A DNA stretch of 64,000 nucleotides, taken from Morinoia aosen (taxonomy: Eukaryota > Arthropoda > Malacostraca > Amphipoda > Talitridae). The stretch is taken from assembly GCA_030386875.1 (NCBI GenBank), contig CM059579.1, forward strand, positions 89,904,253-89,968,252. Direction: 5' to 3'. The notes under the pieces were generated by a model. It ran no database searches, had not been told where the DNA came from, and saw only the letters and a program-made list of their open reading frames with translations. Positions 3,731 through 64,000 of this stretch are shown in pieces. The position numbers and the translations under genes were made by a program. Numbering within the stretch: the stretch's first letter is position 1; every line of letters starts with the position of its first letter.

Positions 3731-3975
3731 GAGGCAGGCCCGCCATGTGCTGCCATTCACGCCCACGGCTGGTCATGCATTGCTCATGAGCACAACAGGG
3801 GCTCATGAGCGCACCCCACACTGGCGCTGTCTCGCTCATGTGCACGGTGTGAATATCTGGAGAGCGCTGCTGTGACATCTGCTATTTTGGGTGCGTTGTT
3901 CTTGCGCGTCTTGCGCCCTCAATATTTTCAATGGCAAGAATTAAAGGGAAACAGTCTAAATCTAGGACATAGAGG

Positions 3976-4341
3976 TGCTTGTAACGGTATCATTTGTGCA
4001 TGTAACGGTATCATTTGTGCTTGTAACGGTATCATTTGTGCTTGTAACGGTATCATTTTTGCTCGGAACGGTATCATTTATGCAGCTTGAAACGGTATAA
4101 TTTGTGATTAAAACGGTATAATTTATGCTGCTTGAAACGGTATCGTTTTTGCTTGAAACGGTATCATTTGTGCTTGAAACGGTATAATTTTTGCTCGGAA
4201 CGGTATCATTTATGCTGCTTGAAACGGTATCATTTTTGCTTGAAACGGTATCATTTGTGCTTGAAACGGTATAATTTTTGCTCGGAACGGTATCATTTAT
4301 GCTGCTTGAAACGGTATAATTTGTGATTGAAACGGTATCAT
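3976..4341. repeat. About 21-bp minisatellite (AACGGTATCATTTGTGC)
   Basis: Around 18 copies of a unit built on AACGGTATCATTTGTGCTTG. There is higher-order order: a block of type GCTCGGAACGGTATCATTTA followed by TGCTGCTTGAAACGG recurs three to four times. This shows that groups of units were amplified together. Confidence 0.9.
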
Positions 4342-4687
4342 GGTTACGCCTGACTGGCGGCTGGCAACTTGTGCTACCAACTCAACTGTCGTTAGGTGAA
4401 AAAGAAAATTCCTGATTGGGTGAGGTTACGTTCGATTACGTTGAAATCGATAAGGCCAATGGTATCATAAGATAGGTTAAAATTAAGAGGAAACATTCCC
4501 ACAATTGAATTAAAAACAAGGGAAAATCATTTCGAGCCGTGCTTTGCAGTTGCGATTAAAAGATATATTTTCAAAGTTTTTGTTTGGAGAACAAAACTTT
4601 GGAGAACTTGGCAGTGTTTGATTGTGTTTCTAATCTTGAGTTATAGGGCTGAGATTTGTACACGCCTCACTGCCCCTTCTGATGCAT

Positions 4688-4794
4688 CCCAGTCTAACTT
4701 TTTCGCCGGAGCATGCATGTTTTTCACCGCCTAAGCGATTTAATTACTTGGGCGGCGAAAAACAGGCATGCAGGCGGCGGAAAAGTTAGACTGG
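4688..4794. mobile_element. Palindromic (fold-back) element, copy 1
   Basis: About 107 bp beginning CCCAGTCTAAC and ending GTTAGACTGG. The two arms of about 45 bp are near reverse complements, each carrying GCATGCATG-like and ACCGCC/GGCGGC blocks. They flank a short AT-rich centre (GATTTAATTACTT). It is one of four related copies in the window. No open frame is present, so I read it as a non-autonomous MITE or fold-back repeat. I could not define a target-site duplication confidently. Confidence 0.75.
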
Positions 4795-5092
4795 ACTCAA
4801 GTTTAAATTCAGAAAATTCACCCACCGTAGCGTACTGGAGAGACCTCAAATTGTTTCAAACTAAGTAGAACCTAAGCAGTTTTCGTCCTAATTCGAAATT
4901 TCAAGCATTTCTGATAGCTTATCGATACTCCCGAAAAGCTTGAAAATAATCAGTAAATAATTACTCCCGTTTTTCAAATGATAACTATCTATTTCATCTA
5001 TATTACTTATAAGCGCGGAAAGATAGCTAATTTACTTTCATATTCCATGCTAATGTCTAATATCATATTTATGAAATCGTACATGAACCCTC

Positions 5093-5524: not shown

Positions 5525-8500
5525 GCACCAGTACACACAGCACCAGTACACATAGCACCAGTACACACAGCACCAGTACACACAGCACCAGTACACACAG
5601 CACCAGTACACACAGCACCAGTACACACAGCACCAGTACACACAGCACCAGTACACACAGCACCAGTACACACACCACCAGTACACACACCACCAGTACA
5701 CACAGCACCAGTACACACAGCACCAGTACACACACCACCAGTACACACACCACCAGTACACACAGCACCAGTACACACACCACCAGTACACACACCACCA
5801 GTACACACAGCACCAGTACACACAGCACCAGTACACACACCACCAGTACACACAGCACCAGTACACACAGCACCAGTACACACACCACCAGTACACACAC
5901 CACCAGTACACACAGCACCAGTACACACAGCACCAGTACACACAGCACCAGTACACACACCACCAGTACACACACCACCAGTACACACACCACCAGTACA
6001 CACAGCACCAGTACACACAGCACCAGTACACACAGCACCAGTACACACACCACCAGTACACACACCACCAGTACACACACCACCAGTACACACAGCACCA
6101 GTACACACAGCACCAGTACACACAGCACCAGTACACACACCACCAGTACACACACCACCAGTACACACAGCACCAGTACACACAGCACCAGTACACACAG
6201 CACCAGTACACACACCACCAGTACACACAGCACCAGTACACACACCACCAGTACACACAGCACCAGTACACACAGCACCAGTACACACACCACCAGTACA
6301 CACACCACCAGTACACACACCACCAGTACACACACCACCAGTACACACACCACCAGTACACACAGCACCAGTACACACAGCACCAGTACACACAGCACCA
6401 GTACACACACCACCAGTACACACAGCACCAGTACACACAGCACCAGTACACACACCACCAGTACACACACCACCAGTACACACAGCACCAGTACACACAC
6501 CACCAGTACACACAGCACCAGTACACACACCACCAGTACACACAGCACCAGTACACACAGCACCAGTACACACAGCACCAGTACACACAGCACCAGTACA
6601 CACACCACCAGTACACACAGCACCAGTACACACAGCACCAGTACACACAGCACCAGTACACACAGCACCAGTACACACAGCACCAGTACACACAGCACCA
6701 GTACACACAGCACCAGTACACACAGCACCAGTACACACAGCACCAGTACACACACCACCAGTACACACAGCACCAGTACACACACCACCAGTACACACAG
6801 CACCAGTACACACAGCACCAGTACACACAGCACCAGTACACACACCACCAGTACACACACCACCAGTACACACACCACCAGTACACACAGCACCAGTACA
6901 CACAGCACCAGTACACACAGCACCAGTACACACACCACCAGTACACACACCACCAGTACACACAGCACCAGTACACACACCACCAGTACACACAGCACCA
7001 GTACACACAGCACCAGTACACACAGCACCAGTACACACAGCACCAGTACACACAGCACCAGTACACACAGCACCAGTACACACAGCACCAGTACACACAG
7101 CACCAGTACACACAGCACCAGTACACACAGCACCAGTACACACAGCACCAGTACACACAGCACCAGTACACACAGCACCGGTACACACAGCACCAGTACA
7201 CACAGTACCAGAACACACAGCACCAGTACACACAGCACCGGTACACACAGCACCAGTACACACAGCACCAGTACACACAGCACCAGTACACACAGCACCA
7301 GTACACACAGCACCAGTACACACAGCACCAGTACACACAGCACCAGTACACACAGCACCGGTACACACAGCACCAGTACACACAGCACCAGTACACACAG
7401 CACCAGTACACACAGCACCAGTACACACAGCACCAGTACACACAGCACCAGTACACACAGCACCAGTACACACAGCACCGGTACACACAGCACCAGTACA
7501 CACAGCACCAGTACACACACCACCAGTACACACAGCACCAGTACACACAGCACCGGTACACACAGCACCAGTACACACAGCACCAGTACACACAGCACCA
7601 GTACACACAGCACCAGTACACACAGCACCAGTACACACAGCACCAGTACACACAGCACCAGTACACACACCACCAGTACACACACCACCAGTACACACAG
7701 CACCAGTACACACAGCACCAGTACACACACCACCAGTACACACAGCACCAGTACACACAGCACCAGTACACACACCACCAGTACACACACCACCAGTACA
7801 CACACCACCAGTACACACAGCACCAGTACACACACCACCAGTACACACACCACCAGTACACACAGCACCAGTACACACAGCACCAGTACACACACCACCA
7901 GAACACACAGCACCAGTACACACAGCACCGGTACACACAGCACCAGTACACACAGCACCAGTACACACAGCACCAGTACACACAGCACCAGTACACACAG
8001 CACCAGTACACACAGCACCAGTACACACACCACCAGTACACACAGCACCAGTACACACACCACCAGTACACACACCACCAGTACACACAGCACCAGTACA
8101 CACACCACCAGTACACACAGCACCAGTACACACAGCACCAGTACACACACCACCAGTACACACAGCACCAGTACACACACCACCAGTACACACAGCACCA
8201 GTACACACAGCACCAGTACACACACCACCAGTACACACACCACCAGTACACACAGCACCAGTACACACACCACCAGTACACACACCACCAGTACACACAG
8301 CACCAGTACACACACCACCAGTACACACAGCACCAGTACACACAGCACCAGTACACACAGCACCAGTACACACAGCACCAGTACACACAGCACCAGTACA
8401 CACAGCACCAGTACACACAGCACCAGTACACACAGCACCAGTACACACAGCACCAGTACACACAGCACCAGTACACACACCACCAGTACACACACCACCA

Positions 8501-47721: not shown

Positions 47722-48090
47722 TCAGGGGCTGGTGCTGGCACTTAAGGGGGCCGTCATGCTGTCGTCGCTCTCCAAGTAGGAGACGTAGCTGTCGCTGTGG
47801 GCCGACTCGTCGTAGGCCACGAAATCAAACTTCCCACCGTCGGGCACACCGTGAGTGGACGGGGGAGTTTGGTGTTGTTGGGGTGGCGGGTGTAACTGCT
47901 GGTGTTGTAAGGGTGGGGGTTGTTGCTGCTGTGGTGTTGGGGGTTGTTGTGGTGGGGTTGGCTGGGATTGGGATGGGGGTGGGGGAGCGGGTTGGGTTGA
48001 CTGTTGGGGGTGCAAGTGAGGTGCCAGAGGGTGCCCGGGTTGACATAAGATCTCGGATGCCGGTATCATCTCTGTTCCGAAGCCGTGCAT
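47722..48090 (-). CDS. tup: Islet/tailup LIM-homeodomain factor, terminal coding exon
   Basis: Last coding exon, 122 codons plus a TGA stop at 47722-47724. The acceptor is a pyrimidine-rich TTTTGGTCAACTTTCAG followed by ATGCACGGC, phase 0, joining to the SQ of the preceding exon to give LMSQ-MHGFGTEM. The peptide begins MHGFGTEMIPASEILCQPGH, continues through a region of about 60 residues rich in Pro, Gln and His, and ends with FDFVAYDESAHSDSYVSYLESDDS before the stop. Arthropod Islet (tailup) proteins have the same order: an MHG start, a low-complexity middle and an acidic SYLESD-type tail. Islet is a nuclear transcription factor that specifies motor neurons, heart and other fates. The acidic tail could serve activation, but that is inference. 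Confidence 0.93.
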   Translation of the reverse strand: MHGFGTEMIPASEILCQPGHPLAPHLHPQQSTQPAPPPPSQSQPTPPQQPPTPQQQQPPPLQHQQLHPPPQQHQTPPSTHGVPDGGKFDFVAYDESAHSDSYVSYLESDDSMTAPLSASTSP

Positions 48091-50036: not shown

Positions 50037-50510
50037 AAGTGATGCGTAAATTTGTGAGGCTAGTTTTATACATATGTCAAGTGATGCGTAAATTTGTGAG
50101 GCTAGTTTTATACATAAGCCAAGTGATGCGTAAATTTGTGAGGCTAGTTTTATACATATGTCAAGTGATGCGTAAATTTGTGAGGCTAGTTTTATACATA
50201 TGTCAAGTGATGCGTAAATTTGTGAGGCTAGTTTTATACATATGTCAAGTGATGCGTAAATTTGTGAGGCTAGTTTTATACATATGTCAAGTGATGCGTA
50301 AATTTGTGAGGCTAGTTTTATACATATGTCAAGTGATGCGTAAATTTGTGAGGCTAGTTTTATACATAAGCCAAGTGATGCGTAAATTTGTGAGGCTAGT
50401 TTTATACATAAGCCAAGTGATGCGTAAATTTTCGAGGCTAGTTTTATACAGAGGCGAAGTGATGCCTAAATTTGCGAGGCTAGTTTTATGCACAGGCTAA
50501 GTGTCGCATG
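50037..50510. repeat. 42-bp minisatellite in the islet intron, about 11 copies
   Basis: Unit: GTGATGCGTAAATTTGTGAG plus GCTAGTTTTATACATATGTCAA. Copies differ mainly at ATGTCAA versus AAGCCAA, and the last three diverge. Because 42 divides by three, a plus-strand frame of 153 codons (VMRKFVRLVLYICQ period) stays open. It lies antisense in an intron and I do not call it a gene. Confidence 0.93.
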
Positions 50511-50884: not shown

Positions 50885-52427
50885 AGCTGCTGGTACTGCC
50901 CAATACATAAAGTACCTGCTACAGGAAATACAGTACCTGCTACAGGAAATACAGTACCTGAGACATGAGCTGCTGGTACTGCCCAATACATACAGTACCT
51001 GCTACAGGAAATACAGTACCTGAGACATTAGCTGCTGGTACTGCCCAATACATACAGTACCTGCTACAGGAAATACAGTACGTGAGACATGAGCTGCTGG
51101 TACTTCCCAATACATACATATAGTACCTGCTACAGGAAATACAGTACCTGAGACATGAGCTGCTGGTACTGCTTAATAAATACAGTCCTGCTACAATAAA
51201 TTCAGTACCTGGGATATAAGCTGCTGGTACTGCCCAATAAATACAGTATCTGCTACAATAAATTCAGTACCTGGGATATAAGCTGCTGGTACTGCCCAAT
51301 AAATACAGTACCTGCTACAATAAATTCAGTACCTGGGATATAAGCTGCTGGTACTGCTTAATAAATACAGTACCTGCTACAATAAATTCAGTACCTGGGA
51401 TATAAGCTGCTGGTACTGCCCAATAAATACAGTACCTGCTACAATAAATTCAGTACCTGGGATATAAGCTGCTGGTACTGCCCAATAAATACAGTACCGG
51501 CTACAATAAATTCAGTACCTGGGATATAAGCTGCTGGTACTGCCCAATAAATACAGTACCTGCTACAATAAATTCAGTACCTGGGATATAAGCTGCTGGT
51601 ACTGCCCAATAAATACAGTACCTGCTACAATAAATTCAGTACCTGGGATATAAGCTGCTGGTACTGCCCAATAAATACAGTACCTGCTACAATAAATTCA
51701 GTACCTGGGATATAAGCTGCTGGTACTGCCCAATAAATACAGTACCTGCTACAATAAATTCAGTACCTGGGATATAAGCTGCTGGTACTGCCCAATAAAT
51801 ACAGTACCTGCTACAATAAATTCAGTACCTGGGATATAAGCTGCTGGTACTGCCCAATAAATACAGTACCGGCTACAATAAATTCAGTACCTGGGATATA
51901 AGCTGCTGGGACTGCCCAATAAATACAGTACCTGCTACAATAAATTCAGTACCTGGGATATAAGCTGCTGGTACTGCCCAATAAATACAGTACCTGCTAC
52001 AATAAATTCAGTACCTGGGATATAAGCTGCTGGTACTGCCCAATAAATACAGTACCTGCTACAATAAATTCAGTACCTGGGATATAAGCTGCTGGTACTG
52101 CCCAATAAATACAGTACCGGCTACAATAAATTCAGTACCTGGGATATAAGCTGCTGGGACTGCCCAATAAATACAGTACCTGCTACAATAAATTCAGTAC
52201 CTGGGATATAAGCTGCTGGTACTGCCCAATAAATACAGTACCTGCCAAAATAAATACAGTACCTGCCACAACAAATACAGTACCTGGGACATAAGCTGCT
52301 GGTACAGCCAATATGTACAGTAACTGCCACAACAAATACAGTACCTGAGACATAAGCTGCTGGTACTGCCCAATACATGCAGTACCTGCTATTATACATA
52401 CAGTACCTGCTACAACAAATACAGTAC
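50885..52427 (-). repeat. 62-bp minisatellite made of the islet exon end plus its splice donor, about 24 copies
   Basis: Read on the transcript strand, each unit holds TACCAGCAGCTTATATCCCAG directly followed by GTACTGAATTTATTGTAGCAG, then GTACTGTATTTATTGGGCAG. The first segment matches the last seven codons of the adjoining Islet exon (YQQLMSQ) with one or two changes, and the following GTACTG matches the real donor. The array begins at the donor itself, so the minisatellite grew from the exon/intron boundary. Variant units (GGGACTGCCC at about 51908 and 52156; ACCGGCTAC at about 51497, 51868 and 52118) are spaced by multiples of 62 bp, showing multi-unit copying. Units near 50.9-51.2 kb are a related longer form with CTACAGGAAATACAG. 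Confidence 0.95.
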
Positions 52428-52643
52428 CTGGGACATAAGCTGCTGGTACTGCTGGTGGACGAGGGGATCAATTCTGTCCGGGTCATGGGCCTGGGCGAAC
52501 TCCGTGAGCGCCTTCCAGGGGGGGTGGTACCCAGTCACGTCCACGGGGCCCGACACTCCCGCCAGGGGCCCGCCGTCGTGCCGCTGGGGGGACGAGGCCA
52601 CCATGGGCACGCCTGACAGCCCCTGCAGCACCATCTGTTTCTC
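52428..52643 (-). CDS. tup: Islet/tailup exon encoding the Lhx3-binding-like region
   Basis: 216 bp, 72 codons, phase 0 at both ends. The acceptor is CATCTGCTGCAG before GAGAAACAG and the donor is TCCCAG before GTACTG. The peptide runs EKQMVLQGLSGVPMVASSPQ, then RHDGG, then DVTGYHPPWKALTEFAQ, and ends HQQYQQLMSQ. Vertebrate Isl1 has PMVAASPERHDGG and YQPPWKVLSDFA at the same place. That segment binds the LIM domains of Lhx3/4 in the motor-neuron complex, so the same role is likely here. A second in-frame acceptor (GTGCTGCAG before GGGCTG) lies 21 bp inside and would drop EKQMVLQ. Read-through past the donor gives VLYLL and a stop. The exon's 3' end abuts, and is the source of, the 62-bp minisatellite. 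Confidence 0.95.
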
Positions 52644-54799: not shown

Positions 54800-55490
54800 C
54801 ATCTTCAATCCATCACCTTCAATCAATCGCCTTCAATCCATCGCCTTCAATCCTGCTGTCTTCAATCCAAGCATCAATTTCCTGGAGAAAATCGCCGTTT
54901 ATCAGAATTTGCGAGTTGAAGTGTGTTGGAGTTGAGTGAGAGGAGCGCAGAGGCGGGGTGTGTTGAAACGCGGGTGTGTTTACACTCCTTACACAGGCGA
55001 TGGTGTGTTAGATCGAGACGGTACACACCCTGAGTGCTCGGTCAACACGCCTGTCTACACTCCACCCCGCGATCGGTATCTCTTTCTTGTCTGCCTTCAG
55101 TCCTTCCCCTTCTGCTGCCTTCAGTCCTTCCCCATCTGCTGCATTCAATCCTTCCCCATCTGCTGCCTTCAACCCTTCTCCTTCTGCTGCCTTCAACCCT
55201 TTCCCTTCTGCTGCCTTCAATCCTTCCCCTTCTGCTGCCTTCAATCCTTCCCCATCTGCTGCCTTCAACCCTTCCCCTTCTGCTGCCTTCAACCCTTCCC
55301 CTTCTGCTGCCTTCAACCCTTTCCCTTCTGCTGCCTTCAATCCTTCCCCTTCTGCTGCCTTCAATCCTTCCCCTTCTGCTGCCTTCAATCCTTCCCCATC
55401 TGCTGCCTTCAACCCTTCCCCTTCTGCTGCCTTCAACCCTTCCCCTTCTGCTGCCTTCAATCCTTCCCCATCTGCTACCTTCAACCCTCC
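54800..55490. repeat. 24-bp minisatellite in the islet intron, about 17 copies plus outliers
   Basis: The main array is at 55093-55490, with unit CCTTCAATCCTTCCCC followed by TTCTGCTG. Variants (CCCATCTG, AACCCTT, CTTTCCC) recur in blocks. A looser forerunner, CTTCAATCCATCGC, is at about 54800-54875. A length of 24 divides by three and all frames lack stops, so FNPSPSAA-type peptides run open on both strands. I do not treat these as genes. Confidence 0.92.
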
Positions 55491-56162
55491 CCACTTCTGC
55501 ACACCGCTTCTTTATTCATCTCTGCAGCCCCGGCCTCAACCAACCCAGTTCTGAACACTTCGTAGGGCATCTAATATTCTCTCTGCTCTCTTCGCTCATC
55601 TCGGGCAGCATGTCTGGCTTCATGCAGTCTCTTGTCACACTTCTCCGTGCTCTTTACTTTTCGTTATTGTGACGTCCTTCTGTCCCCGTTTACTTCTTTA
55701 CGTCTCTGTTATCCTTGTTCTTCTTACTCTTCTGATTTTCGAGTATTTTTTTGTGCTTTTGATGAGCAAAAAAATTATAATTACAAGACCTTTCCTAATC
55801 ATGACTAAAATTTTTCGAAAATTTAAGGAGACTCAGGTTTGTGCTATTTATGCTCATTTCTCACGTTAATCGGTTTCTCCAAAACCGAAACGTAACAGTT
55901 CATTCAAAAATTTTTATCAGCCAGTATTTAGACTGGAAAGACTGGCACCCGTTTCAGAATTCATACAAGAGACTCACTAACCTAGCCTGCGAACAAATTT
56001 TGCAGTTTCCTCTCAAGCATTTCTGTCAACCGTTGCCCCACCGAGTTAAATTCCTTAATTAGATAACTGATTCTCCACGCTTTAATAGGAATAAATTTAG
56101 AGGGTCAACCCGTCCTCCATTGCACGCAACATTCCCTGCACCAGGGAGATGCTGCAGAGCTA

Positions 56163-57735: not shown

Positions 57736-58656
57736 ACAGCCCACCCAGGGACCGTAACTCAATAGGCGCTCCAGAGACGGACGTCCCATGCGATACCTTG
57801 TCTCCAAGTTTGAAAGGGTAAACAAAATGGAGGGTTTGGTGACCATTCCAAGTGTACTTTATGGAGCCTGACGGATCCTGTTTGCTTTGTAGCTTGGAGG
57901 CAACTCGTCGAGCCTCAACGAGAGTAAGTCAAGAGAAAGAGCTAGCAAAAAAGGCTCCAAGCGAGCTTCAGTATGTGAGTCGGCAGAATGTGATGTCGAC
58001 CTGTTGCTGGAATGTGCACCTGTGGGTTAGAATGTGTCCGTACGTTGTACACGTTCACCCTTTGGCAGGCATGGGTGTGTTTCTGGCACGCACATGTAGT
58101 GTGTCGCACGCACATACTGTCCGTAGCAGTACCTATGTACTGTTTGCTGTTGTATGAATAACTTGTGGAAAAATAAGGAATAGCACAATTGATACCATAA
58201 TCATTCACCATGTACGTACGTCTAGACAATTCTGAAAGAAATGCTGCCATTACGTCAAGGGTTATGAAGAATGTTGGCTTAGTATAAATGCAGTTCAAGT
58301 CTTTCTGAAGCTCAAACTGTTAACTGAAAAAATCGAACTGCAAATCAATACAGAGAAAAAAAACAGAAACTTAGGTTTATAAGCATAATGAATAAATGAA
58401 CGCAACAGGAACCGCCAAGAATAATAAAAATTATTGACTGGGGATTATATCTTCCACATTCCAATGATAGAGAACGCAGATATAAGCAGCCTTTAAATGA
58501 GCATGAAATTTTTTTAACACACGCTTAACCGTGGCAAATTGGGCACGACTGAGACAGACAAGCTTTAGCATTCTTGGCAGCGTCCTTGCTGTTTCCTTAA
58601 AGACTAACTAGAACTAAAACAAACGAACGAGTTGCATTTACCTCAGGGTTCCATAC

Positions 58657-58816
58657 CTTCTCATGCTGCATTTGCTTCATGAGTATCGCTCTCTTCTTGT
58701 CCTTGCATCGCTTGTTTTGGAACCAGACTCGTATGACCCGAGGTGACAAGCCTGTCATTTCTACCATCTGCTCCTTCATGAGCGCGTCCGGCCGGCAGTT
58801 GGCGGCGTAACAGGTC
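58657..58816 (-). CDS. tup: Islet/tailup homeodomain exon B (canonical)
   Basis: 160 bp: one base finishing codon 17 of the homeodomain, then 53 codons. The acceptor is CATCGTAG before GACCTG. The chosen donor is GAGAAG before GTATGG, phase 0. The peptide begins [16 protein letters not shown], continues [14 protein letters not shown], then [12 protein letters not shown] in the recognition helix, and ends MKQMQHEK. With standard homeodomain numbering it keeps Y20, W48, F49, Q50, N51, R53 and C54. This is Islet class: vertebrate Isl1 is nearly identical, except that the usual NPRPD is NCRPD here. A second possible donor (CCTGAG before GTAAAT) 15 bp downstream would add VWNPE in frame. Homeodomain residues 1-16 and the two LIM domains are encoded upstream and were not found in the window. 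Confidence 0.95.
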
Positions 58817-61800
58817 CTACGATGCACGAGAAGCAAGCCACACTTCAGCATCTTCCTTGTTAAGAGTCACACTAAGTCTAAACAACATCACAACATCGTT
58901 GCCTAGTTACAGAGCACACAGTGGCGCAAGTAATAGGAGGCCTAATAAAGGAACGGATCACGAGGCAGAAATTTGAGTCCTGCTTGTCTTTTTTTTCCCC
59001 ACAACTTAGAAATCACAAGTATTCTTAACGGCCCTTTTTTTGAGTACTCCCAATATTTAAAAGCTTTTTCTGGCACATAATTGTACAATATTTCTAAATT
59101 TAAGGTAATATAATATTTGCACTATTACACGTATAGTTTGTATAAATTGTAATCTGTAATGCAAACGAAAAGTTATGAATTTGAAACTACTTACGATGAT
59201 TGCGTGCTCTAACATATATTTTAGACAACTCCACCCAAAAATAGATAACTCAAATAATTGAATTTTATCATTTTTATAAGCATATAACATCCATTTCAGT
59301 CACCACAAAAAACCCTCGTATAGAACATCATTCTACCAGGAACAAATATTTTTTAACTACCTTTTCAATTATTCACAATCTTACGCGACGACTTCACATT
59401 TGTTGTTATCTACCCTAGTATAGTAGATAAGATTGCATCCACTCGTGTTTTGTGTTATCTAGTCGTGTTCTAACATTTTTTTGTGAAATGCTGATGCGAA
59501 ATTTAGTTGTCTATATTCTGCCAAAAAAAAATGATTTCGTAATTGAGATGTAATTACACATTACACCTTCGTTGAAAATTGTAAGTTCTTCTTCAGTATC
59601 GAATAAAAGGAGAGGGTGAGAAGGCGCAACGCAAAGGGCGTGAGAAGAAACAGTCTGACGGCATCTCAGTTTTTCAAGAAGATGGAAAAAGTGAGACAAC
59701 TTCGAGTCACGGGGGGGAGTGTGGCAAATTTACGCCCAATTGAGACAACGAAGAATAATTCGTTTTTTATTCGATTGAAACTCCCACTAGAGCATAATCT
59801 CCTCAAGTTCTAATTCAACAAATAAATCCAAAATATTCATTTTTGAGGCGAAACTGTGGCTGTGTGTTGTGTGGGCCTGTATGTGTGCAAAGTGATATAC
59901 GCTAGATACTTCTAAATCATTCACAAACTTAGAACGCAAATCATTCAAATGAAAACGCTGGCATAGCAAATGAAGATGTAAATCAATATAAAAACATTCG
60001 TTGCCGGATTTTCAGTGTTTTTGCTAAAAGAACTCGAGAGTTTTGCTTTGTTTCAATTCCAAGTTAGTACGCTGTCCCCTGGCAGTGAAATTGGCTTATG
60101 TCGTCGGTTAGACGTGGGAAAATGGCATAATTATTACTTATATCGCAATATTAAAATGCTTCATTAGTTAATTAGGAGACTTGTGATTTATTCGACTTCA
60201 AAAATTAATGAAGAAACGATGAAACATAAACTTTCCAAAATAAGAAATTAGAATTTCGTGGTAAAGTTTTATTTTCACAGAAACTGAGGCCCCTCTACAG
60301 TGTGCGCTTCAGTTGTTTTTGGCCAAGTAGTTACATACTGTTCATAATATCAGGTCATTATTGCCTTTAATTTTATTTTACGAAAACCTGAATGGATCAG
60401 TCTTCGCACAGTTGATCTTTGCGGTCGCTTAAGTTAGCTAAACATCGGATTTCCCCGTAAGATTTTGTGCGGTAGCAATTTAGTGGCCACAAAACATGCG
60501 TTACGCAAGTTCCCTATAATTCGGTGAGAAAGTTTGAATAAATCTAACTTATACTCCATGCAACTGGTTAAGGCTACATTTGAAGTAATGGACAAAAGTT
60601 CGTCTAATCAGGCTCTAGGAGGCCTTCTCATTGGGCCTAAAGAAAGGTTTCTATACGCAAGCTAACCAAGCTCGCGGAGATAAGAACTCGACTGGGGCGT
60701 AAAAAGCTGGTTTACGAGCTCACAGAACTCCTTCCTTGAGGACCTGTCGCGTCACAACCCGATGTCTCATATACTGTTACCGCACTTGAGATATTGCCTG
60801 CACGTTTTCATGTCAGTGATACGCTCGACTACGGTCATTTTTTTAGGAGCTATTAGAGATAGATAATAAAGCTATTGTCTGTGGTGCAGGACAAACCAAG
60901 TCTAAAACAAAACAAATACGGGATCGATTCGTTCCTGCTTTTTCTACGCTACAGGTTAGAATTTCAACCGCAATGATTTCCCTAAGGGACCTATATTTCT
61001 GTTGCATTTTTTCAGAGATCACGAACTAGTTTTTCATTTGCGTACATAGAATTTTGCGCAGAAGAGGCTGAAATGAAATTTGTAGAGTGTATTTCATTTT
61101 CTTGTTCGTACATGTAACTTATGATATGCTTAAAAAATGTTTGAAATGACATGCATTATAAAATTTGTCACTATTTCTCAACGAAAAAAGAGTTAAATAA
61201 ACTTTGCTCTTGATTTTTTGCATTACTAAACTTCAGAATTTCTCATTATTTGTTAGTCAAAAAATGATTAAAATAGACTTGGCTCTTGATTTTTTATAAA
61301 CAACTAAACTTCAGAATTTAAGTACAGCTACATCGTAATAATCCCACATTGACTATGAGTAATGCATTCCATATGCATGATCACGCTTTCAAAGCGAGAT
61401 CGGAGATAACATATTTATGAGCCTCGTCTGACCAGATCTACATGGAACGTTCCCAAACGCAGGCCCACAATCAGGATATTACAGGTAGGATATACCTTCT
61501 CTCAGTGGGTCCAAAACATACCTAGTGACATTGAGCTCTATGCTTGAAAGTCTGCTCATTTTCGTTTTGTGCATTGATTGTTTACTTTTTCCATCAAGAA
61601 GCTATGAACAATTCGAAAACTTTCAACTTGTGTGACGTGCTGAACTTCTAAAAGATGTTGGAAATATTCTGCATGTATGGAACATTAGTGTAAAATTTAT
61701 TTTTTTCATAGATGCGAAATGGTGGACCTAGTGGACGCTTTTACGCTTCGAATTGTTTCTAAAAGTAACAAATGACAAATGAGCTGCACTGTACGATTTC

Positions 61801-62694
61801 TAAGTCAGTTTAGAAATGTATTTTTTTTGCCATACGACTTGCGGAATAACTTTATTGAGAAAAAGAAACCATTTGACAAGAAATAATTAATGCGCATGAC
61901 TAGGTTGATTCGTATTTCTCGAATTTTCTAATCTTAAGATGAACTTTCTAATCTTTGCTGCTATATAGTGTGATCTTTTTATAAGAAAAATCTACCCTCA
62001 AGGACATTGTGGTGCCATAGCCAAAGAAGATCTTCTAAAAACTTCAATCCCCCTCAAGTTAAATACCTGCAGTACCAAAGAACACAGTGCACCAATACAG
62101 ACATTCATATAATTGCTCTGTTACACAGTTAGATAAATAGTCTCTATGTTGGACAGTTGACGGAGAGGAAGAGAAAGCTTCTGTTCCAGAACAAGCGATG
62201 CTTCAGGGATGAGGAGGAGCAATAAACAATGGCTTTTGGTTTGTAACACAGAAATAAATTTCACTGGCATCGCCGAGCATCATTCGAGCTGTGACCACAG
62301 GATATGGAACCAAGAGTCTAAATGCACTTTTTACATAGGCAATACAATTCGCTAGAGAAATATATAAATGAAACTGAGGCTCCAGGCCTGATCTAACAAG
62401 CAAGATTTTGCTCGTAGGTCAGGTTTCTGGAGCACGCCAAGGTGTCTTCATGCGTTGGCTTACATATTTTAAATTCACACTAAGCTTTGAAGACTTTCTA
62501 TAGTTTACCATAATAAATTACTTTTTACCATATCCAAAAATCTTTAGCTTTAACATTTCCTTTCTTGGGGAAACAATTACAGTTGGTGAATTTAGATAGA
62601 GTCAACGACTTTCATTTCAAGTTGAAATATCGAGAGAAAAGTTTGCCGCATGAAGTAAAGTGGATCACGAATTTGAGTGCAGTTGGTTCCATAC
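58817..62694 (-). other. Interval between the two homeodomain exons
   Basis: 3.9 kb searched for an islet N-terminal homeodomain exon, LIM-domain exons or a second C-terminal exon; none was recognised on either strand. A duplication of about 88 bp lies at 61170-61335. Otherwise the DNA is AT-rich without recognisable genes. Confidence 0.65.
61170..61335. repeat. Tandem duplication, unit about 88 bp
   Basis: Two copies share TRGCTCTTGATTTTTT, ACTAAACTTCAGAATTT and, before them, AAAAxxGATTAAAxTARACTT. Confidence 0.78.
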
Positions 62695-62857
62695 CTGTGG
62701 CAGCAGAGCTCTTTGTTGCTCTATCCTAGCTCGCCTCTTGTCCTTGAAGCGCTTGTTCTGGTACCAGACTCTGACCACCCTCAGGGGCAGCCCCGTCTGC
62801 CTCGTGATCTCCTCCTTGAGCAGCGAGTCGGGCCGCGGGTTGGAGGCGTAGCAAGAT
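62695..62857 (-). CDS. Divergent Islet-like homeodomain exon A (alternative exon or paralogue)
   Basis: 163 bp: one base finishing codon 17, then 54 codons. The acceptor is GTGCGCTGCAG before ATCTTGC; the donor is CCACAG before GTATGG. Entry and exit phases equal those of exon B. The peptide begins [16 protein letters not shown], continues [14 protein letters not shown], then [12 protein letters not shown], and ends [10 protein letters not shown]. It keeps W48, Q50, N51, R53 and the Islet-type NPRPD and QNKRxKDK, but has Y49 instead of F49 and F54 instead of C54. It agrees with exon B at 26 of 42 aligned residues and resembles Islet more than other LIM-homeodomain classes. The first ten intronic bases (GTATGGAACC) are the same as in exon B. 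The frame is intact with no stop. It is either a mutually exclusive exon of the same gene or part of a tandem paralogue whose other exons I cannot find. Confidence 0.85.
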
Positions 62858-63318
62858 CTGCAGCGCACAGAGTCTCGCCCAGTTAGTCTCAAGCATTTCG
62901 GGTTCCCTCGCCTTTCGCTCTTACGATCTTACGAAAATTTGGAGAGTTATCGTTACTTCTAGATTTTACGAAAATTTGCGAAATCTTCGTTACTTTTCGT
63001 TCGTACGAAAATTTGAGAAATGTTGTCGTGATCAAGATGCGCTTCTCATTATTTAACGCAGCTCTGCAGGGATCTTTTGGCGCTGAGGTGTGCAGTGCAC
63101 AGCGTGTGCAATATTCTCTATAATATTATACATTTCTGTTGTCTTAAATTTGAATTTGACTCTCATATTTATTGTAATGAATTCAGGAGCAGCTCTCTTG
63201 AAATGATCTTAGTGGTGATAAAGAAACAACATATCTTGGTTAGCTAATGAGTGCGTTCCTTAGCGCATACGCTGCTATACAGTTGCTCATTTCTCCGTGC
63301 GGCTACACAGACGCTATA
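62858..63318 (-). other. Upstream intron or flank of exon A
   Basis: No LIM or N-terminal homeodomain exon recognised. 62928-63030 carries three loose copies of TACGAAAATTTG followed by CGTTACTT-type sequence. Confidence 0.5.
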
Positions 63319-63504
63319 TACTCTATGTCCCACGAAAACCGGAACCGAGTATTTACTTTCCCTTATCAGTAATACCATTATAATCAGTAATATCTTTTCT
63401 ATAGACTAATTTGGATGGATAACTTTGCTAGATATTAAATGCTCATGGTATTACCGAAACGGGAAAGTAAATATTCGGTTCGGGTTTTGGTGGGACATAC
63501 TCTA
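63319..63504. mobile_element. Tc1/mariner-type MITE, copy 2
   Basis: 182-bp element between TA duplications (63319-63320 and 63503-63504), about 0.5 kb upstream of exon A. The arms read CTCTATGTCCCACGAAAACC and, at the right, its near complement ending GTGGGACATACTC. The following CGGAACCGAGTATTTACTTT matches copy 1 at 30.6 kb, while the interior differs. It is an older and more diverged member. Confidence 0.85.
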
Positions 63505-63507
63505 TAA

Positions 63508-63605
63508 TACCGTCTATGCTCTACATATAATACCGTCGATCCTTTATAATACCGTCTATACTCTATAATACTGTCTATGCTCTATTATACTATTTATATT
63601 CTTTA
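63508..63605. repeat. Short repeat (TAATACCGTCTATGCTCTA)
   Basis: Five imperfect units of ATACCGTCTATxCTCTATA directly follow the MITE. Their CTCTATAATAC phrase matches the MITE's own right flank, so the repeat may have grown from it. Confidence 0.78.
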
Positions 63606-64000
63606 ACACCGGCCGTCACTGCATGAAAAACAGCACGTAGACCACAACACGCGAGGCTGCGGCTCAATGACTCCTCTGATGTACCTAAAAAGTAAGGCTT
63701 TTTCTGGAGCATTCCAATGCTGTTCTTATGCCTCATCTGCGGAGCTGGCAAGTGTAAATTTGTCTCGCTGTCAGTGCTAAAGTTTTATTGTTAAGCCTGA
63801 GATTTGCAAGTCTGAATACTTTCGATGCATTAAAATATTCTGTCGTGAGTAATTCAGTGGTGAATTCGTCATTGAATTACATAAGACAGAATATTAAACG
63901 AACTACTGGTAGAACGTTACAAGCCCATGCATCAGTATGTTTTGGTCATCATTGAGGAGTTGTATGGATTCTGGAATAAATTCTGCTTTCAAATTTACAT
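63606..64000. other. Window end, no feature seen
   Basis: AT-rich with no recognisable exon. The upstream part of islet (LIM domains, start codon, promoter) would lie beyond here. Confidence 0.45.

Follow-up and report, generated by a model that had tools for sequence, protein, structure and literature searches.

Two tandem homeodomain exons in a single Islet gene of the amphipod Morinoia aosen as candidate mutually exclusive exons

Gene anatomy of the locus

Islet belongs to the core of the LIM code, by which motor neurons, heart and endocrine cells acquire their identity. It is usually regarded as having one homeodomain per gene, and to our knowledge the known Islet genes do have one. Here we describe an Islet locus of Morinoia aosen with two candidate homeodomain exons, located on a 64,000-nt stretch of contig CM059579.1 (assembly GCA_030386875.1; G000:C24:89904253-89968252), hereafter the window. 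The 200 kb upstream were joined to the window to give the 264 kb examined, with window-extended coordinates running past the window end; downstream, pieces were examined, and genome-wide searches covered the 1.99 Gb assembly in 29 contigs. Judged from its sequence, the locus holds one LIM-homeodomain gene of the Islet (tailup) type, read from the minus strand and modelled here from LIM1 to Ct2. Its exon encoding homeodomain residues 18-60, together with the tail behind them, is duplicated in tandem (exons A and B, Table 1). Two Islet-type LIM domains, an Islet homeodomain and the C-terminal conserved region are all present, in the LIM1-LIM2-homeodomain-C-terminal order of Islet/tailup genes such as human ISL1 and Drosophila tailup. 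Within the window, tblastn with human ISL1 gave clear matches to A, B and the C-terminal exon at 52643-52428, and to no LIM exon. The partner exons LIM1, LIM2a, LIM2b and HDn (the N-terminal homeodomain half) are found in order 3-9 kb upstream of A, as the one such set in the 264 kb. LIM1 to HDn form one open frame when HDn starts at 66146, while an acceptor at 66138 would break it, and HDn ends in KTTRVRTVLNEKQLQTL plus AG, the first two bases of an Arg codon, at the donor CAG/GTGAGG (the slash marks the junction). The introns HDn-A, A-B and B-Ct1 measure 3195, 3878 and 6013 nt.

Borders, phases and frames of exons A and B

Exon A (163 nt, ctgcag/A TCT TGC ... CTG CCA CAG/gtatgg) and exon B (160 nt, atcgtag/G ACC TGT ... 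CAT GAG AAG/gtatgg) both start with base 3 of codon 17 of the homeodomain (Arg, in the usual numbering), enter in phase 2, leave in phase 0 and have AG/GT borders. An earlier note on this DNA had given the coordinates, phases and reading frames of the two exons as we find them. When the exons are joined in silico, the chains HDn-A-Ct1-Ct2 and HDn-B-Ct1-Ct2 each give an uninterrupted reading frame, and both end at one stop, at 47722. The same note held that inclusion or skipping of both exons shifts the frame, and this is borne out: HDn-A-B meets a TGA near the end of B, and HDn-Ct1 meets a stop inside Ct1. Between A and B, as the note had also reported, the human ISL1 query found no LIM, N-terminal homeodomain or C-terminal Islet exon.

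Published criteria for mutually exclusive exons are similar length, compatible splice sites and frame, and homology, a combination shown by only 90 of 16,180 non-exclusive exons of the D. melanogaster X chromosome (PMC3228551). Exons A and B are of similar length and the same phase, have compatible GT-AG sites and homologous sequences, and share one set of flanking constitutive exons, and their joint inclusion is non-productive. The earlier note read the matched phases and frame shifts as the usual signature of mutually exclusive exons. Both features also follow from simple descent, so that part of the argument is weaker than the note had it and the decisive point becomes the single partner set. 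With that set, the note's central claim of one Islet locus whose two homeodomain exons have no useful joint form gains much strength. The anatomy of the pair is that expected of two mutually exclusive exons, and we infer that they would be used as such.

Table 1. Coordinates of the gene model and of the splice sites of exons A and B
Feature	Position	Strand	Remarks
LIM1	window-extended 71831-71636	minus	partner exon
LIM2a	window-extended 69005-68907	minus	partner exon
LIM2b	window-extended 67371-67220	minus	partner exon
HDn (N-terminal homeodomain half)	window-extended 66146-66053	minus	beyond window end
Exon A 3' splice site region	62858..62917	minus	CTAAC branch-point-like about 26 nt from junction; pyrimidines 9/20 (weak)
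Exon A, candidate alternative Islet homeodomain exon	62695..62857	minus	codon 17 base 3 to residue 60 and 11-residue tail
Exon A 5' splice site	62685..62694	minus	GTATGGAACC, 10 intronic bases same as exon B
Exon B 3' splice site region	58817..58876	minus	TTAAC branch-point-like about 44 nt from junction; pyrimidines 13/20 (better)
Exon B, conventional Islet homeodomain exon	58657..58816	minus	residues 18-60 and 10-residue tail
Exon B 5' splice site	58647..58656	minus	GTATGGAACC
Ct1, shared C-terminal coding exon 1	52428..52643	minus	216 nt, phase 0, PMVASSPQRHDGG...PPWKALTEF
Ct2, shared last coding exon	47722..48090	minus	carries stop codon

One set of partner exons

A complete second gene upstream of the window had been named in the earlier note as one of the findings that would overturn the proposed pairing. 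The 200 kb upstream hold one partner set, with no second Islet LIM or HDn exon, and the view that A and B share their partners is upheld: a single LIM/HDn set lies upstream of A, and the assembly has no close match elsewhere except a near-identical copy of the locus. Genome-wide, exon A as query found itself, an identical copy at C24:88850809-88850973, and exon B with its copy at 59%; the remaining matches began at E=3e-4 (the E limit of 0.1 admitted 15 matches; 33/33 candidates scored). The LIM1-HDn protein as query found the four exons here and four at the copy (eight of 33 matches; 59/59 scored), and its best match outside the two was 48% identical (E=1.7e-14). A separate homeodomain scan of the genome scored 150 of 312 candidates. 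Viral contigs yielded no relatives, nor did plasmids when queried with A, which is unsurprising for a gene of animals.

The copy lies on the same contig and holds one A and one B; its offset is 1,116,138 bases at these two exons but 1,116,094 at LIM1, LIM2a, LIM2b and HDn. Over the 5701 nt compared (copy C24:88846500-88852200) it is 99.965% identical to the window, with two differences, at 61350 and 63379, both intronic. It may stem from a second haplotype, from the assembly or from a duplication that is very recent; being near-identical, it carries no information on selection.

Two homeodomains compared

Both A and B match the Pfam homeodomain profile, entering it at position 17 or 18 and reaching its end. 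The best PDB match of B is ISL-1 (E=1.4e-26), as it is of A (E=8.1e-17, followed by DUX4 at 5.8e-12 and the next LIM factor, Lhx4, at 2.9e-9). Compared directly, A and B are identical at 29/49 residues (59%; tblastn E=1.9e-17 in the 264 kb), and across residues 18-60 they differ at 16/43 positions, B matching human ISL1 at 40 of these 43 and A at 27. The duplicated segment runs from the last part of helix 1 through helices 2 and 3 into the tail, and the A and B forms would have their LIM domains and C-terminus in common. Helix 2 keeps 4/11 residues and helix 3 keeps 12/17; in helix 3, A and B agree at residues 47, 50, 51, 53 and 55 and are distinguished by F49Y and C54F, and the tails of 11 (A) and 10 (B) residues also differ. 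Since residues 47, 50, 51, 53 and 55 are unchanged, core TAAT-type binding is probably kept in the A form, with fine specificity or protein contacts probably altered. The proposal in the earlier note that the swap would give one factor two DNA-binding surfaces is in that light probably too strong and goes beyond the sequence, the changes being concentrated in helix 2.

Selection on exon A

Residues are conserved between A and B beyond chance. Over 44 codons, 27/44 residues are common to the two exons, with 25/44 third positions identical, and NG86 gives nonsynonymous (dN) and synonymous (dS) distances of 0.26 and 1.8, or dN/dS of about 0.14; over 53 codons dN is 0.37 and dS 2.3, and by maximum likelihood dS is saturated. 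Neutral decay was simulated from B with 4000 runs per distance d. At d=0.3, 51% of runs retained at least 27/44 residues; the share fell to 1.65% at d=0.5, to 1/4000 at d=0.7 and to 0/4000 at each of d=1.0, 1.5 and 2.0, with mean third-position identities of 35.6/44, 31.2/44, 27.8/44, 23.7, 19.0 and 16.1, respectively. Exon A therefore looks to be under purifying selection, because 27/44 residues match B although synonymous sites are near saturation. The open frame of A is by itself weak evidence, as the chance of no stop alone is ~0.2. The GC content of third codon positions (GC3) in A (44/54 codons) and B (39/53) is in line with that of the partner exons (LIM1 59/64, LIM2a 24/32, LIM2b 35/50, Ct1 63/72, Ct2 79/123), the three flanking introns having 36-45% GC. 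The near-saturation of synonymous sites also indicates that the pair should be old, and it would be expected in related genomes and in existing RNA-seq.

Splice sites and the choice between A and B

The two donors share ten intronic bases, beyond which the intronic flanks of A and B look unrelated, and a search of both window strands found the GTATGGAACC 10-mer at these two donors only. Among 996 GT sites outside repeat arrays at 47000-72000, 27 of 495,510 pairs share ten bases (simple repeats and the A-B pair included), and among 129 donor-like GTRNG sites of the same interval the figure is 12 of 8,256 (A-B pair included), which puts the chance of a shared 10-base donor between about 5e-5 and 1.5e-3. 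Because synonymous sites inside the exons have diverged, this identity would be better explained by a splicing signal common to the two exons than by coding sequence. Published work has found that successive introns around mutually exclusive exons resemble each other more, on average, than control introns do (PMC6071210). Scored with a matrix, the A donor ranks top among 677 GT sites. A second in-frame donor, GAG/GTAAAT, lies 15 nt past the B donor (last exon base 58642) and would add VWNPE to a possible extended B; on the same matrix it scores below the first donor. Given the better 3' site of B, our guess is that splicing takes B by default and that the use of A is regulated and needs help. 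Three self-complementary stretches in the HDn-A intron exceed the control, at 63306-63518, 63834-63895 and a 19-bp stretch at 64313-64331. The one at 63306-63518, of ~213 bp, resembles a miniature inverted-repeat transposable element, with TGTCCCAC-type ends inside, and lies ~450 bases upstream of exon A.

Interpretation and rival explanations

We consider it quite probable that the locus is one Islet gene with tandem homeodomain exons, of which splicing places one, A or B, between HDn and the pair Ct1 and Ct2. HDn would be joined to one exon or the other, and messages with both or neither would meet early stops and be lost or truncated, which would give exclusivity at the level of functional messages even without a splicing lock. 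We infer that A is transcribed and spliced as HDn-A-Ct1-Ct2, and that its changes in helix 2 and at residues 49 and 54 would bear less on core recognition than on fine DNA preference and on contacts with partners. It also seems reasonably likely that Islet has for a long time carried two homeodomains in an arthropod lineage, with mutually exclusive splicing selecting between them. Keeping its LIM partners, the factor could then specify cells in two ways by means of residues 49 and 54 and of altered contacts of helix 2.

Several observations weigh against mutually exclusive use or against particular mechanisms for it. The dN/dS between A and B averages their two branches, and a recent loss of function in A is possible. 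The 3' site of A is weak, with 9/20 pyrimidines against 13/20 in B. Pairwise opposite-strand short blastn between the HDn-A, A-B and B-Ct1 introns, in a single genome and with low power, found no pairing above the maximum of 30 shuffles (best pairings 25.3, 28.4 and 25.3 bits versus shuffle maxima of 30.0, 28.4 and 30.0), so a docking/selector mechanism is without support. Steric exclusion was rejected because the three introns are too long, and incompatibility of U12 and U2 sites because both exons are GT-AG with GTATGG donors, which are not of the U12 type. In human, 377 (60%) of the mutually exclusive clusters hold exons not divisible by three, and reads joining both exons occur in some clusters with incompatible frames (PMC5740500), so that a frame clash alone is no proof of strict exclusion.

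A different use of A is conceivable, as an alternative last exon whose message, by read-through past A or through an unrecognised small exon, would end in the A-B intron and give an Islet form without the normal C-terminus. Unspliced A does meet a stop nine residues on (VWNQLHSNS, then stop), and truncated LIM-homeodomain isoforms are known in Lhx9 alpha and beta (PMC2447832). The seven AATAAA/ATTAAA signals of the A-B intron would serve such an ending, but 7.7 are expected by shuffling; moreover, A has the top-ranking donor, with the same ten bases as B, and exits in phase 0, exactly as Ct1 needs. We regard this use as unlikely. The death of A as a duplicate exon no longer in any useful message is more doubtful still: its greater divergence from human ISL1 and its weak 3' site would suit a dead exon, and a recent death is possible, but the open frame, the intact splice sites, the dN/dS of about 0.14 and a conservation beyond simulated neutral decay speak for a functional one.

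It is highly improbable that A is part of a second gene in tandem, Islet-like and equipped with LIM exons of its own. LIM-homeodomain genes do adjoin here, given an apparent divergent one downstream on the same strand; however, the search of the 200 kb upstream found no second Islet LIM or N-terminal homeodomain exon, the interval from A to B yielded no Islet C-terminal exon, and a second Islet gene for A was rejected on the strength of the one partner set in 264 kb and the lack of a close genome match beyond the copy. Least credible of all is the view that A serves as a poison or decoy exon and, when included together with B, would tune the Islet level through message decay. The early stop produced by A and B together would serve that purpose, but a poison exon needs no conserved homeodomain sequence, phase 0 exit or signature of purifying selection.

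Relation to known systems

Alternative homeodomains are known from the UNC-62 protein of C. elegans, which has two homeodomain isoforms by splicing, A1 and A2 (PMC4448998), its gene having two mutually exclusive seventh exons (PMC3685541). The Islet pair would resemble unc-62, a Meis/hth homologue, in obtaining alternative homeodomains through splicing; it differs in that unc-62 is a nematode gene of the TALE class, whereas here a LIM-class factor would be swapped from residue 18 on, as known from genome sequence. Exons 18 and 18b of FOXP1 are mutually exclusive and give two forkhead domains that prefer distinct DNA motifs (PMC11701043), likewise within the DNA-binding domain of a transcription factor, although there the domain is a forkhead, the animals are mammals and the switch has been shown experimentally. 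Splicing also changes the homeodomain of the LIM-homeodomain factor Lhx9, where the alpha/beta difference truncates the domain (PMC2447832), whereas here it would be replaced by a homologous one. For Islet itself, we found no report of alternative homeodomain exons among the titles and abstract openings of the papers listed in searches of the openly licensed literature. The residues missing from ISL1-beta lie outside the homeodomain. As cDNAs, ISL1 alpha and beta measure 1050 and 981 bp (PMC2447832). In the parts considered, a thrips genome paper (PMC7570057) and one on a homothorax micro-exon (PMC7392893) have no bearing on Islet. If mutually exclusive use of A and B holds, a splice switch inside the Islet homeodomain would separate the choice of LIM partner from that of DNA or cofactor within one gene, and one neuron-identity factor could act in two ways.

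Neighbouring sequence and tandem repeats

The apparent divergent LIM-homeodomain gene downstream has a homeodomain exon at C24:89761740-89761886, which starts at codon 17 base 3 and has DUX4, then Lhx4, then ISL-1 as best PDB matches, and a LIM exon at 89797374-89797565, 35 kb away; the two are assumed to form a single gene. Like the Islet locus, the neighbouring LIM-homeodomain exons occur twice, at offsets of ~1,103,100; the doubling may reflect a false duplication in the assembly or a large one of recent date.

Of the seven internal exons that the Islet gene model contains, four (LIM1, LIM2a, HDn and Ct1) have a long tandem array that overlaps the 5' splice site or starts ~20 bases beyond it, while LIM2b, A and B have no tandem array at the donor. 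These arrays lie at 51175-52449 and, counted from the window end, at 443-2032, 3947-4911 and 7079-7670 (window-extended 64443-71670). The array after LIM2a has ~54 copies of an 18-mer with TTTCAGGTAACT, and in three of the four arrays the repeat unit includes a copy of the exon end and donor. Similar tandem duplications of exon-intron boundaries have been named 'mirages' in amphioxus (PMC3087553). Two further arrays are intronic and open in several frames through repetition, one in the B-Ct1 intron (55091-55500, 24-bp unit, 17 copies) and one in the Ct1-Ct2 intron (50037-50489, 42-bp unit, 10.8 copies).

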